A stretch of DNA of 57,898 nucleotides from Candidatus Peribacteraceae bacterium (GTDB lineage Bacteria; Patescibacteriota; Gracilibacteria; Peribacterales; Peribacteraceae). Location of the stretch: positions 79,455 to 137,352 of the forward strand of contig JAQVMB010000001.1 of the NCBI GenBank assembly GCA_028703835.1, written 5' to 3'. This document shows, piece after piece, positions 4,579 to 45,916 of the stretch (within the stretch, counting starts at the first letter, position 1; every line of letters starts with the position of its first letter). The translations under genes and the position numbers were made by a program. The notes beneath the pieces were generated by a model. It saw only the letters and a program-made list of their open reading frames with translations. It was not told the origin of the DNA and searched no databases.

Positions 4579-4920
4579 CGGAAGAATCCGAGGAATCCGA
4601 AGAAGCCGAAGAATCCGAGGAGATTTTGGTTTTGTTCTACCTCATCCCCTCACCCCTTCTCCCGCCTCATTTCACCGCATCGGATCCGCTTCCGATATAC
4701 TCTGGAACTGAATAGGGAGAAGGGGGATGTTGGTTGTTTCTATTTGTCTCATGCGAAGGAAGACAACGACAGAACATCACACATGCCCCTTCTCCTTTTC
4801 TTCGGTGCTCCTCCCGGAAAGAAGAAGGCTTCCCTCGGAGGAAAGCGTGGAAGGAGAAGGGGGTAGGGGATGAGGTCATAAACAGACAGAAAAACATCTT
4901 CCCTTGTCTCTTCGGAATCC
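4579..4920. repeat. ~340-bp nested inverted-repeat element, copy B
   Basis: Starts one base after the ATPase stop codon with imperfect 9-mers (GAAGAATCC/GAGGAATCC), then the outer arm CCTCATCCCCTCACCCC (4640), the inner hairpin arms, and GGGGGTAGGGGATGAGG (ending 4875). It closes with TCTTCGGAATCC (4909-4920), roughly the inverse complement of the opening 9-mers, so the whole unit has terminal inverted repeats. It occupies most of the 556-nt gap before the receiver-like gene. Confidence 0.85.
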
Positions 4921-19155: not shown

Positions 19156-19254
19156 GCACCGTTTCTTCCCGCTTCGAACTTCGCCCTTCCCATAGGGGAT
19201 CCGATTCTCTACCCTGTACGGGACTCTTTGGGAATTCCACCCCCCAGTTTGCCT

Positions 19255-20730
19255 ATGGCTTCTCATCCCAGAAAATTCATCGCCCAACCCACCGACGAGG
19301 ATCTGAAGAAGTTTCCGGAGAAGGTGACGCACCTCATCAAGAAAGGCCGCGAGCAGCGGTATGTCACGCACCAGGAGATCATCGCGGCGGTGCCGAACGC
19401 CGAAGAGAACGTCGACATGCTCGACGAGATTTACACTATGCTCGTGGAGCTGGGGATCCAGGTGATCGACGTGAAGGACGCGCTCATTTGGGAGAAGAAG
19501 GGCAAGATGCCCGTCGAGGCGGCCGCGGAACCGGTCGAAGATTTGGCGAAAGTCGCGGCGGGAGCGGAGGATACGGCGGAAGGGGATGAGGACGCCGAAC
19601 CGGAGGAAGAGAAGGTGGAGGCGCTGGGCGACGAAGTGGACGACGACGCCATGAAGATGATCTCCACGGCGGGAATCGTGGTGGACAGCGACAAGGACAT
19701 CTCGGAAGAGGAGCGCAAGAAGCGCCGCAAAGAGCGCGAGATCGATCTGCTCGAAATCAGCAACGACTCCGTGCGCATGTACCTCTCGGAGATCGGCCGC
19801 GTGCCGCTCATCGACGGACGCAAGGAGGTGGAGCTCGCCCGCCGCATCCGCAAGGGGGACGCCGGCGCCAAGCAGCAGCTGGCCGAGGCCAACCTGCGCC
19901 TCGTCGTGTCCATCGCGAAGAAGTACATCGGACGCGGTCTCTCGTTCCTGGACCTGATCCAGGAAGGGAACATCGGCCTCTTCCGCGCCGTGGAGAAGTT
20001 CGACCCGGAGCGCGGCTTCAAGTTCTCCACGTACGCCACGTGGTGGATCCGCCAAGCCATCACTCGCGCCATCGCGGATCAGGCGCGCACGATCCGCATC
20101 CCCGTCCACATGGTGGAGACCATCAACAAGCTGACGCACACGCAGCGGCGCCTCGTGCAGGAACTGGGCCGTGAGCCGACGCTGGAGGAGCTCGCCGTCG
20201 AGATGGAAATGGACATCAAGAAGGTGGCGCACATCCAGAAGATTTCGCAGGACATCATCTCGCTCGAATCGCCGGTCGGTTCGGAGGAGGACAGCAAGCT
20301 CGGGGACTTCATCGAAGACGAGGAGGCCGTGAACCCGTTCGAGGCGACCAACCGCCAGCTGCGCAAGGAGAACGTCCACGCGATGCTGGAGTTCCTCACG
20401 CCGCGCGAGCGCAAGATCATCGAAATGCGCTTCGGGCTCAAGGACGGCATCGGGCACACGTTGGAAGAAGTGGGGAAGGAATTCGGCGTCACCCGCGAGC
20501 GTATCCGCCAGATCGAGGCCAAGGTGCTCCAGAAAATGCGCGACCATCCCCGCTCCCTGACCATCCGCGAGCACGGCGGCGCCCCGAAACGCGTGGGTTT
20601 CTCGCACATGCATGCTTTCACGCAGCAGAAGGGCTGTCCCAATTGCAAGGAGGGCACGCTTGTCGACATCATCAAGGACGGTGAGCAGATCAAGAAATGT
20701 GACCACTGCGCCAAGGAATACAAGGAATGA
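19255..20730 (+). CDS. rpoD: Primary sigma factor RpoD (sigma-70) with C-terminal zinc ribbon
   Basis: 491 residues. Region 1.1-like N-terminus, an acidic linker, then regions 1.2 to 4: [11 protein letters not shown] (1.2), [12 protein letters not shown] and the [22 protein letters not shown] block (2.1-2.2), [13 protein letters not shown] (2.3-2.4), the region 3 block with RIPVHMVE, and the region 4.2 helix-turn-helix [15 protein letters not shown]. This is the housekeeping sigma, recognising TTGACA/TATAAT-type promoters. Unusually, after region 4.2 the protein continues ~50 residues and ends in a CPNC-x17-CDHC zinc ribbon (C461, C464, C482, C485). ATG 19255 (MASHPRKF) was chosen; another lies at 19228. 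Confidence 0.95.
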
Positions 20731-20880
20731 CAACACAACAAACAGAAACATAAACACGTCGCATGCCATTCATGCCATGCCGCAGAGGCTTCAGCCTCTG
20801 CCGGAGGGCTGAAGCCCTCCGCTGCGCACGTTGAAACGCGCGCCACAGTTTTGTCTATTGTTTCTGTTTCCCGCCCGTTC
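20731..20880. repeat. Orphan REP pair (mini-element related to the RAYT unit)
   Basis: Two GC-rich hairpins in a row: GCAGAGGCT-TC-AGCCTCTGC (20782-20801) and GGAGGGCT-GA-AGCCCTCC (20803-20820). The left flank (ACAACAAACAGAAACATAAA then GTCGCATGCC) and right flank (TTGTTTCTGTTTCC...CGTTC) resemble the ends of the transposase unit at 45041-45865. It directly follows the rpoD stop and may also stop transcription. Confidence 0.75.
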
Positions 20881-20883
20881 CTC

Positions 20884-20892
20884 TGCTACCAT
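20884..20892 (+). promoter_or_regulatory. Extended -10 of the UvrD-like gene
   Basis: TGCTACCAT, ending 6 nt before ATG 20899. It lies at the right edge of the REP mini-element. Confidence 0.45.
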
Positions 20893-20898
20893 CCCGGC

Positions 20899-23889
20899 AT
20901 GGCCTCTCCTTCCAAAGCGACCAAGACGAAGACTGCGGTCGGCGCGGGCGGTTTGAGCGTGTCGCTCTCCCTCTTCGACACGGAGTACGCCAAGCTGAAC
21001 CCCGATCAACGGAAAGCGGTGGACACCGTCGAAGGGCCGGTGATGGTGGTGGCGGGTCCCGGCACGGGCAAGACGCAGACGGTGGCGATGCGCGTGGCGA
21101 ACATCCTCCGCAAGACCCAAGCGCGGCCGGGGAGCGTGCTGTGCCTCACGTTCTCCACCAGCGGCGCAACGGCGATGCGCGAGCGCTTGCGGCTCCTCAT
21201 CGGGGCGGATGCGTACGGCGTCACGGTGTCCACGATCCACAAGTTTTGCCAAGACATCATCACGGACCATCCCGCGCTCTTCGATGAATGGTCCGCGCTG
21301 GAGCAGATTTCCGACTTGGAACGTTTCCGAGAACTGAATAAAATAATAGATCAGCTTTTGCCAGATCTCGTACTGCTCAACCCGAAATGCCCCTATGTTC
21401 GTACGAAGGAATTGATCGCACGCATTTCGGACGTGAAGCGCGAGGGGAAAACCGTGGAGGATTTGCGGCAGGCGGCGGAAGAGTATGCGACGGTGATGGA
21501 GGGGAAGAGCAAGCCGGGAACGAAAGCGCACGAGAAGAACCTGCTTTCCGCGCGGAAGTTCCGGGAGTTCGTCGAGATTTTCGACCGTTACCGGCAGATG
21601 CTCCGACTGACGGGACGCTACGACTACGATGACATGATCCTGTTCGTCATCCGCGCGCTGGAGCGGGAGGAATGGCTGCTCGCGCAGTTGCAGGAACGGT
21701 ACCTCTACGTGCTCGTCGACGAATTCCAGGACACGAACGGCGCGCAGTACCGCGTCATCGACCTGCTCACCAAGCCCGTGACGCCGGAAGACCGGCCGAA
21801 TTTGTTCGTCGTCGGGGATGACGACCAGGCCATCTACCGCTTTCAGGGCGCGAATCTCCAGAACATCCTCCGCTTCCGCGAACGCTTCCCCGATGCGGCG
21901 GTGGTCTCGCTCACGACCAGCTACCGTTCCACGCAGGCCATCCTGGATGCGGCTTCCCGCCTTATCGCCCGCAATACGGAACGTCTCGTGGGGCGCATCG
22001 ACGGCCTGCGGAAGGAGCTCCGTGCCGCCTCGGGAGAGCAGGGGAATGTTCCCGTCCTCCTGCGGCCGCCCAGCGACATGGCGGAGCCGTGGATGATCGT
22101 GGACATCGTCCGCGATCATCTCGACGCGGGCTTGAAGCCGTCCGACATCGCCGTCATCGTGCAGACCAACCGGGAACTGCGCCCCTACTACGACGTCCTC
22201 ACGGGAAAGGGGATTCCCGTCCGCATCACGGGCAAGCGCGATCTCCTGGAGCATCCGCTGGTCCTCCAGCTCGTCGCGATCCTCCGTGCGATCCACAAGC
22301 CCGATACGAGCGCGCGCTATGCGGGTGCGTTGGGTGCGGAATGCCTGGGCATCCATCCCGCCGACGTCGCGCATCTCTGCCGGTTACACCGCGAACGGAA
22401 ACAGCCGCTCCGCGATGTCCTCGGTTCCCTGGATCAAAGCGACGCGCCCGACGTCCGCTTCGCCGATAAGGACAGGCTCGTGCGGACGCGCGATTTGCTG
22501 GACGACTTGCACCAGAAACTTCCCACGCGGACCGTGGTGGAGACGATCGAACGCGTCTTGCACGATTGCGGCCTGCTCGCGAAAGGCAGGGAGATCCATC
22601 CGCTCGATCTCGCCGCCTTGCAGAGCTTTTTCGACCGCGCCAAGGAGCGCATGATCGAGGTGCCGGGCGTGACGTTCGAGCTCTTCATGGCGGACTTGGA
22701 GCTGTACGCCAACCCGGACTACGGCTTGCGCATGACGTACGACATCCCGCACCTGGTCACGGAAGGCGTGCAGCTGATGACGGCGCACCAGAGCAAGGGG
22801 ATGGAATTCGCCGTCGTCATCCTCGCGAACTTCCGCGAGGGCCTGTGGGACAAACATCGCAAGCCCGGGGGGATATCGTTGCCGGAAGACCTGCTCTTCG
22901 GCTGGGAGAAGGAGCAGAAGGCGTTCGAGAAGAACCAGGACGAACGCCGCGTCGCGTTCGTGGCCATGACAAGGGCTGAACGCGAATTGATCCTCTCCTG
23001 CCCCAAGGAATTGACGGCGGGGGACAAGACGAAGTCCGTCTCCCCGTCGGCATTCGTGGCGGAGGCCGGGCCGTTGCCCGAGGAGGAACGGGGGATCGAC
23101 GATCCCGAACACGCCTCGACGCTGCTCCTCAATCCCGCGCCGGCGTTCGACGCGCAGATGCGGGATTTCCTGACGGAGCGCCTGCAGACGTTTGCGCTCT
23201 CCGCATCGGGCCTCAACCGCTTCCTGGAAGATCCCGTCGAGTTTCTCCGCATCGACCTCCTGCAGGTGCCGCAACTGTCCGAGTACGCCCGCGCGTACGG
23301 CAACGCCGCGCACTGGGCGCTGCGCCAGTGGGGGCTCGCGATGCAGCGGGGAATGCCCATCGGCAAGGAGGCGTTCCTCGGCTACTTCCAGAACTTCCTG
23401 CAGGAGCGGGAATTCCTCGCGGACAACGAGATGAAGCTCCTCCTCCACCTCGGCCAGGAAGCGCTGCCGCGCTACTTCGACCAGCGGCTTGCCGCATCCG
23501 CGCCGTTCATCGACCAAGTGGAGAAGATGTTCATCACGCGTCTGGGTGATATCCCCGTGAAAGGGAATGTCGACCGCATCGATCGCGACCACCCGGAGTC
23601 CGCGTCCGGCACGGTGATCGATTACAAGACGGGTCGGCCGCAGAGCGAGAACCAGATTCGGGAAGGGGATTACTACCGCCAGTTGCAGTTTTACGCCGTC
23701 CTGCTCGAAGAAGCGTATCCCTCGCTGACGCCCAAGGCGTTCATCCTCGAATTCATCGGGGACCGGGAAGAGCACCCCGTCTCCCGCATCTTCCAAATCA
23801 CGTCGGAGGAGAAGAAAGCGATGCGCGAGCTGATCGCGAAAGTGTGGGGGAAGATCGTGAATCTCGATTTCACTCCTTTGTTGCTCTGA
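20899..23889 (+). CDS. UvrD/Rep-type superfamily 1 helicase fused to a PD-(D/E)XK nuclease
   Basis: 996 residues. Helicase motifs in order: Walker A GPGTGKT, DEFQDTN (motif II), VGDDDQAIYRFQGA (motif III), TTSYRS (motif IV), MTAHQSKGMEF (motif V), and VAFVAMTRAERELIL (motif VI). The last ~270 residues are a RecB/Cas4-like nuclease domain: LSASGLNRFLEDPVEFL, then GNVDRID and VIDYKTGRP, which carry the catalytic Asp and Lys. Architecture resembles AddB/AddA-type or CPR helicase-nuclease fusions for DNA-end processing and repair. ATG 20899 starts 6 nt after an extended -10; the longer frame at 20851 lies in the REP element. AddAB/RecBCD partners are absent here. Confidence 0.9.
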   Translation: MASPSKATKTKTAVGAGGLSVSLSLFDTEYAKLNPDQRKAVDTVEGPVMVVAGPGTGKTQTVAMRVANILRKTQARPGSVLCLTFSTSGATAMRERLRLLIGADAYGVTVSTIHKFCQDIITDHPALFDEWSALEQISDLERFRELNKIIDQLLPDLVLLNPKCPYVRTKELIARISDVKREGKTVEDLRQAAEEYATVMEGKSKPGTKAHEKNLLSARKFREFVEIFDRYRQMLRLTGRYDYDDMILFVIRALEREEWLLAQLQERYLYVLVDEFQDTNGAQYRVIDLLTKPVTPEDRPNLFVVGDDDQAIYRFQGANLQNILRFRERFPDAAVVSLTTSYRSTQAILDAASRLIARNTERLVGRIDGLRKELRAASGEQGNVPVLLRPPSDMAEPWMIVDIVRDHLDAGLKPSDIAVIVQTNRELRPYYDVLTGKGIPVRITGKRDLLEHPLVLQLVAILRAIHKPDTSARYAGALGAECLGIHPADVAHLCRLHRERKQPLRDVLGSLDQSDAPDVRFADKDRLVRTRDLLDDLHQKLPTRTVVETIERVLHDCGLLAKGREIHPLDLAALQSFFDRAKERMIEVPGVTFELFMADLELYANPDYGLRMTYDIPHLVTEGVQLMTAHQSKGMEFAVVILANFREGLWDKHRKPGGISLPEDLLFGWEKEQKAFEKNQDERRVAFVAMTRAERELILSCPKELTAGDKTKSVSPSAFVAEAGPLPEEERGIDDPEHASTLLLNPAPAFDAQMRDFLTERLQTFALSASGLNRFLEDPVEFLRIDLLQVPQLSEYARAYGNAAHWALRQWGLAMQRGMPIGKEAFLGYFQNFLQEREFLADNEMKLLLHLGQEALPRYFDQRLAASAPFIDQVEKMFITRLGDIPVKGNVDRIDRDHPESASGTVIDYKTGRPQSENQIREGDYYRQLQFYAVLLEEAYPSLTPKAFILEFIGDREEHPVSRIFQITSEEKKAMRELIAKVWGKIVNLDFTPLLL

Positions 23890-27093: not shown

Positions 27094-27430
27094 CGGAGGA
27101 ATCCGACGAAACCGAGGAAACCGAAGAATCCGAGGAATCCGAGGAGGGTTTGTTGTTACCTCAACCCCTCACCCCTTCTCCCGTCTCATGCCACCGCATC
27201 GGAGCCGTTTCCGATCCATCTTGGAACTGACGGGGGAGAAGGGGGATGTAGGTTGTTTGTATTTGTCTCATGCGAAGGAAGACAACGACAGAACAGCATA
27301 CATTCCCCTTCTCCTTTCCTCCGATGCTCCTCCCGAAAAGAAATAAGGTCTCCCTCTGAGGAAAGCGTGGAAGGAGAAGGGGGTAGGGGATGAGGTGAAA
27401 AATATCCTTCCTCGGTCTCTTCGGCATCCT
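27094..27430. repeat. ~340-bp nested inverted-repeat element, copy C
   Basis: Fills the 401-nt gap between divergent ftsK and the epimerase gene. Same order as copies A and B: 9-mers (GAGGAATCC/GAAGAATCC), outer arm CCTCAACCCCTCACCCC (27159), inner hairpin arms, GGGGGTAGGGGATGAGG (ending 27395), and a closing TCTCTTCGGCATCC (27417-27430). Between the inner arms it shares TATTTGTCTCATGCGAAGGA with copy B. Confidence 0.85.
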
Positions 27431-45018: not shown

Positions 45019-45078
45019 GCGGGCGTTCTGCGAAGGGATGGAACGGAAATGAACAGGAACAGAACACAAAAATCGTGG

Positions 45079-45119
45079 CATGCCTCTCGGAGGCATGGTT
45101 CTGCGGCCTTTGAGGCCGC
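45079..45119. repeat. Upstream REP pair
   Basis: Hairpin CATGCCTC-TCG-GAGGCATG (45079-45097) followed by GCGGCCT-TTG-AGGCCGC (45103-45119). Confidence 0.85.
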
Positions 45120-45136
45120 ACAGGAAGAATTATGAT
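45109..45136 (+). promoter_or_regulatory. Promoter of the REP transposase
   Basis: TTTGAG (45109-45114, in the REP hairpin), 16-nt spacer, TATGAT (45131-45136); ATG 6 nt later. Confidence 0.45.
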
Positions 45137-45142
45137 GAGAGT

Positions 45143-45823
45143 ATGACGGGTACGTTGCAGAAAAGGCACGGCGCATTCCTACCCCATTGGACAATCAAGA
45201 ACGGCATTTATGCCATATGTTTTCGGCTTGCAGATTCGATTCCCCAGATGCAATTGCGCTTATGGCAGCAAGAACGAAGAGACATCCTTGATGCCGCTCA
45301 AACCGGCAAGCGAGATCTTACGCCCCAGGAACGATTGCATCTTGTGCAGTTGAATAGCATGTCCATAGAACGATATCTTCGATGCGGATATGGAGACTGT
45401 TGGCTTCAGCGGGAAACAATCGCAACTATCGTGATTGATGCGTTGAAGTACTTTGAGGGAGAGAGATATCGCCTGTTTGCCTGGTGCGTCATGCCCAATC
45501 ACGTGCACGTAGTTGCTCAACCCTTTCCCGGTCAAACCCTCAGTGCCATTCTTCAGAGTTGGAAAGGGTTTACTGCCAGAGAAGCGAACAAGACGCTCCG
45601 TAGAACCGGAATGTTTTGGCAGCGGGAATACTTTGATCGATGGATACGCACGGCGGATGAACTTCAACATCACATCGCATATACTTGGGAAAACCCTGCT
45701 CTTGCCGGTCATGCCGCATGGCGATGGCGCTGGAAAATGGAAGAGGAGAGCGTTCGAACATTTATCCGTTCACATCCTGATTCACCCTGGAGCGGGCTCG
45801 AAGCCCGCGAAACCGCTCGCTGA
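45143..45823 (+). CDS. REP-associated tyrosine transposase (RAYT, IS200/IS605-like Y1 HUH)
   Basis: 226 residues. The HUH motif is in CVMPNHVHVVAQP; the single catalytic Tyr is probably in FWQREYFDRWI, followed by HHIAYTWENPALAG, which is typical of RAYTs. These enzymes cut single-stranded REP hairpins and are thought to have spread REP/BIME sequences; they are usually single-copy and domesticated. ATG 45143 fits the family start and lies 6 nt after a -10. The last codons overlap the downstream REP hairpin. The gene looks intact. Confidence 0.9.
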   Translation: MTGTLQKRHGAFLPHWTIKNGIYAICFRLADSIPQMQLRLWQQERRDILDAAQTGKRDLTPQERLHLVQLNSMSIERYLRCGYGDCWLQRETIATIVIDALKYFEGERYRLFAWCVMPNHVHVVAQPFPGQTLSAILQSWKGFTAREANKTLRRTGMFWQREYFDRWIRTADELQHHIAYTWENPALAGHAAWRWRWKMEEESVRTFIRSHPDSPWSGLEARETAR

Positions 45824-45832
45824 AAGCGAGCG
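45792..45832. repeat. Downstream REP pair
   Basis: Hairpin GCGGGCT-CGA-AGCCCGC (45792-45808) inside the transposase C-terminus, then CGCTCGCT-GAA-AGCGAGCG (45814-45832), 8-bp perfect arms. Confidence 0.85.
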
Positions 45833-45916
45833 TCACATGTTTGCTGTTTGTGTTTGTTTCCGTTCTGCCGATATGTGGAACCATCCGGCACTACTATCAA
45901 TAACAATTGTCGTGGC

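Follow-up and report, generated by a model that had tools for sequence, protein, structure and literature searches.

What fills the gap between rpoD and the helicase gene that follows it, and is it kin to the transposase unit that lies further along the same DNA? The stretch analysed here (the window, 57,898 nucleotides, C10:79455–137352) comes from the genome of a Candidatus Peribacteraceae bacterium, the host, which comprises 1,335,977 bases (1.34 Mb) in 40 contigs; plain coordinates are window positions, whereas those with C10:, C19: or C35: are contig positions of the host genome. The transposase unit, at 45041–45865, carries a gene for a REP-associated tyrosine transposase (RAYT; REP, repetitive extragenic palindrome) with hairpins at both ends, and the gap behind rpoD holds a cluster of hairpins. 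We consider it probable that this cluster is a non-autonomous group of REPs, comparable to a bacterial interspersed mosaic element (BIME) or a REPIN (REP doublet forming hairpins), that it is of the REP type found at the ends of the RAYT unit, and that it was most likely spread in trans by that RAYT.

The insert between rpoD and the helicase gene

The gap holds an insert of about 140 bp (20731–20872). A sequence-only reading of this DNA had described an orphan REP pair placed exactly between the two genes. The placement is borne out, as the insert starts right at the rpoD stop codon and the helicase ATG lies downstream, and the hairpins are indeed there, but they number four rather than two. 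Read from left to right, the insert consists of an A/C-rich arm, GTC, four neighbouring 20-nt hairpins, CAC and a T/G-rich arm, so that the outer feet of the hairpin cluster are tagged GTC/GTG. Each hairpin has an 8-bp stem and a 4-nt loop, with one stem mismatch each in hairpins 1 and 4. Because the loops read TTCA, TTCA, TGAA and TGAA in order, the left two and the right two hairpins are oppositely oriented. The arms contain an exact inverted repeat (11/11 positions, Table 1), and in the minimum-energy fold calculated with RNA parameters they are paired with each other outside the cluster. The motif GCATGCC, which had been noted just inside both the ends of this element and those of the RAYT unit, is found in both; it belongs to the first hairpin, whose 5′ arm it forms, and is not a motif of its own.

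Related copies and the RAYT unit

A BLAST search with the rpoD element returned nine weak places besides itself, and two of these (E 0.03 and 2.3) were recognized as being of the same kind when their sequences were read. The case made by the sequence-only reading hung on the existence of more copies, and with these two there are three in all. The C10:45 kb and C19 copies contain three hairpins each (loops TTCA, TTAA and TGAA) and have a common central palindrome, with 88% mean column identity; the rpoD copy has left and right ends in common with them and two different middle hairpins. The end hairpins are opposed in all three copies, with a TTCA loop on the left and a TGAA loop, inverted, on the right, and alignments of the ends among the copies gave Z values of 8.8–11.2 for right with right and 4.2–7.2 for left with left. 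Five of the 16 pairs in the end hairpins are changed on both sides (0/500 shuffles), from which it follows that the stems were kept while their sequence changed. The tag GTGG is present at the right end of every copy and at the left end of the C19 copy only, the rpoD and C10:45 kb copies having GTCG on the left, and some stems have one mismatch. In a sample of 352,656 bases of the host genome, made up of the window and 16 further stretches, two of them picked for holding the other copies, there are three clusters of at least three neighbouring hairpins, namely the rpoD element and its two copies; 20 first-order Markov resamplings of the sample yielded one such cluster in total. Pattern counts speak against a large copy number: GCN6TTCAN6GC occurs 82 times in the genome and its reversed control 98 times, and the seven of the 82 with at least 7/8 Watson-Crick pairs all fall within the three known loci.

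The kinship with the RAYT unit was assessed with a covariance model, R1, trained solely on the three non-autonomous copies, the RAYT-unit ends being no part of the training set. Over the whole genome at E ≤10, R1 gave nine matches: each of the three copies was matched on both strands, and the remaining three matches are at the ends of the RAYT unit, with E-values, which are rough, of 0.0014 for the right end and 0.45 (9.6 on the other strand) for the left end. In pairwise alignments, the rpoD element matches the RAYT unit right with right at Z 6.9 and left with left at Z 4.6, with none of 300 shuffles as high; the crossed ends are weaker (Z 3.2 and 4.2, each equalled by the best shuffle). The right ends of the RAYT unit and of the C10:45 kb copy align at Z 6.5. 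The flank similarity that the sequence-only reading staked its case on thus persists in proper alignments and in the genome-wide R1 search, and the element is related to RAYT-flanking hairpins of the same genome, as REPs are, although the left RAYT end is weak alone. Together with the two further copies, these results agree with the earlier proposal, and an element that is non-autonomous and RAYT-related is well supported.

The protein itself matches PF01797 above cut-off (E 3.9e-9). Its best NCBIfam match is NF047646, 'REP-associated tyrosine transposase' (E 5.9e-20), but at 71.6 bits it stays under the cut-off of 80. A profile of four RAYT sequences had a sole match in the PDB, 4er8 (TnpA-REP), at E 1.9e-5. 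Invariant in the four orthologues are H120 and H122 (HVH), W159, Q160 and Y180 (YTWxNP/YVWxNP); Y180 is taken as the catalytic tyrosine from its position before NP, and the HUH, WQ and tyrosine motifs of the window RAYT are intact. As far as the available part of PMC6006769 goes, the tyrosine motif is none of the subclass motifs of its Table 1, with subclasses 2.4 and 2.7 looking nearest. The host genome holds one other RAYT relative at E ≤0.001, very distant (25% identity) and located on C35, aside from which the window RAYT is a single-copy gene flanked by REPs. The C35 gene (L042, C35:33427–36651, ~1320–1925) is itself flanked by GGAG-tagged hairpins of the GGGAGCAGGCATTCCTGCC type, a second REP type in this genome. 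Two open reading frames neighbouring the window RAYT were checked; one encodes a MacB/FtsX permease and the other has no Pfam match.

Table 1. Coordinates and properties of the insert, its neighbours, the RAYT unit and the further copies.
Feature	Position	Strand	Remarks
rpoD (sigma-70)	19228..20730	+	Pfam sigma-70 regions 1.1-4; TIGR02393 above cut-off; stop TGA 20728-20730 abuts insert
Left outer arm, A/C-rich	20731..20757	+	contains AAACAGAAACA 20740-20750; missing at syntenic junction of G001 and G003
Left end, tag GTC(G) and hairpin 1	20758..20780	+	hairpin 20761-20780, GCATGCCA TTCA TGCCATGC; one C.C mismatch; compensatory changes among the three copies
Hairpin 2	20782..20801	+	GCAGAGGC TTCA GCCTCTGC
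Hairpin 3, inverted	20802..20821	-	CGGAGGGC TGAA GCCCTCCG
Right end, hairpin 4 and CAC	20824..20846	-	hairpin 20824-20843, GCGCACGT TGAA ACGCGCGC; one A.C mismatch; minus-strand tag GTGG
Right outer arm, T/G-rich	20847..20872	-	contains TGTTTCTGTTT 20859-20869; border set by eye from empty sites, +/- ~5 bp
-10-like TACCAT	20887..20892	+	6 nt before helicase ATG; TG one base upstream; kept in G001 and G003
UvrD/PcrA-like helicase with C-terminal PD-(D/E)XK nuclease domain	20899..23889	+	PF00580, PF13361, PF12705
RAYT unit, left end	45041..45120	+	A/C-rich arm 45041-45074; tag GTGG 45075-45078; hairpins 45079-45097 and 45102-45120; R1 match 45045-45159
RAYT (TnpA-REP-like Y1 HUH transposase)	45143..45823	+	start 45143 likely; stop 45821-45823 inside right-end hairpin
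RAYT unit, right end	45792..45865	-	hairpins 45792-45808 and 45814-45832; minus-strand tag GTGA 45833-45836; T/G-rich arm 45838-45865; R1 match 45744-45866
Second copy (C10:45 kb)	C10:45407-45535		downstream of zinc-ribbon gene
Third copy (C19)	C19:7628-7753	reverse	between antiporter gene and sufB

Empty sites and relatives of the RAYT

The host's genus is represented by the genomes G001, G002 and G003, which gave no RAYT match and no R1 match at E ≤1. From the rpoD stop to the helicase ATG there are 39 nt in G001 and G003 as against 168 in the host, and neither the hairpin cluster nor the A/C arm is found at these two junctions; G002 has a different rpoD neighbour. At the antiporter–sufB junction of G002 the hairpins of the C19 copy are missing and a short A/C-like stretch is present. 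The 400 nt behind MacB in all three genomes hold no RAYT unit, and other genes follow. Since these sister junctions are without them, the rpoD, C19 and RAYT units look like insertions in this lineage, with old losses possible given the divergence of the sisters. No clean empty site exists for the C10:45 kb copy, as its neighbour gene is one of a multigene family.

Among 59 genomes (host included), four have RAYT orthologues at E <1e-60 and 15 have any match at E ≤0.001. In a tree of 33 sequences the RAYT of the host groups with those of G023 and G027 in a clade with support of 100/99. GTGG-tagged inverted hairpins are found at both ends of the RAYTs of G023 and of G006, a genome from another genus of the same family, and those of G027 are less regular; by eye, none of these three RAYTs has A/C arms like the host's. 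Compared with the hairpins at relatives' RAYTs, those of the host differ in stem and loop sequences, as well as in the GTCG left tags of two copies. When the GTGG hairpin pattern was searched in 36 genomes (host included, G023 and G027 left out), clear hairpins were seen by eye only at the RAYT flanks of G000 and G006, with one doubtful match in G002. More widely, inward-pointing GTAG/GTGG-tagged hairpins stand on both sides of the RAYT in 51 of the 80 best relatives out of 512 confirmed (control tags 0–8 of 80), and 63 of these 80 belong, by record title, to Planctomycetota, Verrucomicrobiota or Acidobacteriota.

The idea of a hot spot common to relatives' RAYTs was dropped as weak because the neighbouring zinc-ribbon family gives 21–69 matches, partial ones included, in five of seven genomes (G000, G001, G003, G023 and G027). 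Members of this family are often adjacent to each other, and those examined terminate in CEECYLKEVY or a similar sequence; in G023 and G027 such genes lie beside the RAYT gene.

The sister genomes also bear on the helicase promoter. The sequence-only reading had put a helicase -10 box at the border of the element. The -10-like TACCAT instead lies 14 bp past the right arm, and because it is kept in the insert-free G001 and G003 it is ancestral and predates the insert. The helicase start (20884–20901) looks leaderless, with TGCTACCAT six nt ahead of the ATG, a sequence that is kept in three species (G000, G001 and G003). The insert supplies new sequence at the -35 position of the helicase gene, and it may affect the expression of the helicase or of rpoD.

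Mode of spread and comparison with known systems

TnpA-REP is described as binding tagged REP hairpins on single strands and cutting near their foot, and REP doublets have been proposed to move as units in trans, in the parts of PMC8266576, PMC6006769, PMC3116915 and PMC3733652 available to us. By analogy with this work on other RAYTs, a single-strand mechanism is most likely here. The window RAYT, as an HUH/Tyr single-strand transposase, would recognise the tagged hairpins on single-stranded DNA, cut near their feet and rejoin the ends, and hairpin units would thereby spread in trans into intergenic sites, leaving three low-copy, diverged copies after rpoD, after the zinc-ribbon gene and before sufB. 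The structure, the related ends, the copies and the absence at sister junctions are directly supported, and they show relatedness and lineage-restricted presence; mobilisation in trans by the window RAYT is inferred as probable.

Several observations weigh against this reading. There are three copies in 1.34 Mb, all intergenic, whereas REPs typically have many dispersed copies. If a REP is defined by a GT[AG]G tag lying 0–2 nt off the foot of a hairpin whose stem is 7–20 bp and whose loop is 2–5 nt, the unit ends give a mixed picture: GTGG occurs at only five of eight, two left ends having GTCG and the RAYT right end GTGA. Loops are 4 nt in the copies and 3 nt at the RAYT ends. Taken singly, the left RAYT end falls short of significance in the R1 search, and its alignments with the left ends of the C10:45 kb and C19 copies (Z 3.0–3.1) are under the best shuffle; the right RAYT end is closer to the left end of the C19 copy (Z 5.6) than to its right end (Z 4.6). 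A locus of two hairpins in G006 that has no A/C arms gets a better score from R1 (E 4.6e-4) than the right end of the host RAYT; R1 gives two weaker matches in that genome besides, and does not recover the RAYT ends of G023 or G027. Because the A/C arms, which also border other host repeats, supply part of the R1 score, the genome search is no test of the hairpins by themselves. Tagged hairpins that point outward are frequent next to relatives' RAYTs as well (30 and 38 of the best 80 of 512), and the sister species are diverged.

The alternative that survives best is that each copy descends from a full RAYT unit at the same spot by loss of the gene between the ends, instead of having been moved there in trans. 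It would account for the rpoD copy matching the RAYT unit best left with left and right with right, and the gene immediately ahead of the RAYT in G023 and G027 is indeed of the family to which the gene before the C10:45 kb copy belongs; the size of that zinc-ribbon family makes this co-location weak. The central palindrome common to two copies is missing from the RAYT unit, which fits the copying of an already reduced form, and no RAYT coding remnant was detected at the copies (E ≤0.001). On balance we regard such decay as unlikely. We give very little credence to an immobile terminator or mRNA 3′-end stabiliser of rpoD that evolved in place. Strong hairpins do stand right behind the rpoD stop, and on either strand the final hairpin is followed by a T-rich arm, but the element is also found at two unrelated places and is missing downstream of rpoD in G001 and G003. 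A consensus scan of 20600–21000 reported no promoter and no terminator, and either one was rejected as the primary explanation; the element may act secondarily as a terminator or stabiliser. A chance likeness of unrelated hairpin clusters through composition, with A/C-rich spacers and GC hairpins, could point to the A/C-rich tracts at other host palindromic repeats and to the armless place that R1 scores in G006, but it is highly improbable in view of the compensatory changes in the end hairpins, the restriction of R1 matches within the host genome to these loci and the uniqueness of clusters of at least three hairpins in the sample.

Non-autonomous spread by the RAYT, which we continue to favour, makes the element one of a known kind, RAYT-linked REPs of the BIME or REPIN type. 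As described in the available parts of PMC3116915, PMC6006769 and PMC8266576, RAYT-linked REPINs and BIMEs likewise consist of tagged inverted hairpins, intergenic and non-coding, with a cognate RAYT flanked by similar hairpins, but they number tens to thousands of copies, while the host has three copies, three or four hairpins per copy and outer A/C–T/G inverted arms. There is also a likeness to the GTAG/GTGG REP families of the Planctomycetes-Verrucomicrobia-Chlamydiae (PVC) superphylum, e.g. GTAG-20 of O. terrae, compared here by its description in the accessible part of PMC3733652 and not by sequence. The same part of that paper describes TIRtrons and TIRYT genes, which resemble the host unit in that long terminal inverted repeats (TIRs) enclose a tyrosine transposase gene and repeat copies are dispersed, and, in Pseudomonas, TIRs that link degenerate GTAG units with other hairpins; as far as that text goes, the host differs in that its tagged hairpins are extended by outer arms of low-complexity, A/C-rich sequence. 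With IS200/IS605 elements such as IS608, and derivatives resembling miniature inverted-repeat transposable elements (MITEs), the host shares an HUH Y1 transposase (PF01797) with subterminal hairpins, but it has RAYT-type motifs (WQ and the tyrosine before NP) and inverted hairpin pairs. We found no literature on RAYT or REP in Patescibacteria or the candidate phyla radiation in the one library searched. The host offers a reduced RAYT/REP case, in which a single RAYT unit is accompanied by three miniature derivatives within 1.34 Mb and sister genomes serve as empty controls, and such low numbers could let the start or death of a REPIN family be read.

The arms themselves deserve separate mention. 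A/C-rich tracts, read inward, are present at all eight outer flanks of the four units, compared with 0.55% of random 36-mers; this count is descriptive because the rule for calling a tract was set after the flanks were known. Among 445 60-mers behind long open reading frames, 17 contain an A/C tract and 15 a T/G tract. The A/C arm was rejected as a sole marker, given that a loose rule called 173 tracts in the sample of 353 kb, many of them, among the matches listed, in coding sequence or at other repeats. A/C–T/G arms are also found at the ends or junctions of other host palindromic repeats, some in mirrored order, and arms of this kind do not appear in the parts of PMC8266576, PMC6006769, PMC3116915 and PMC3733652 at hand. 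The arms may be functional ends, pairing arms or a by-product. It is a speculative idea, and a doubtful one, that in this lineage these arms and not the REP hairpins would mark where a mobile unit ends, as a module common to GTGG REPs, the RAYT gene and other palindromic repeats, such that one machinery would spread unrelated hairpin units and leave each with the same low-complexity inverted arms.

Some further repeats with such tracts were seen along the way. An interspersed repeat of about 250–310 bp occurs in the window at 1549–1829, 4581–4894 and 27105–27402 and at L088 17777–18028; the copy at 4581–4894 has the ends ACCTCATCCCC and GGGGATGAGGT with T/G and A/C tracts outside, in mirror order to the REP units. 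A repeated junction with T/G and then A/C tracts (GTTTG..CAAAC type) lies between GC-rich repeats at L081 ~18599, L083 12957, L084 8583 and L085 15999. In G006, a GGAG-tagged hairpin pair (L257, G006:C21, ~1501–1600) has A/C- and T/G-rich flanks.
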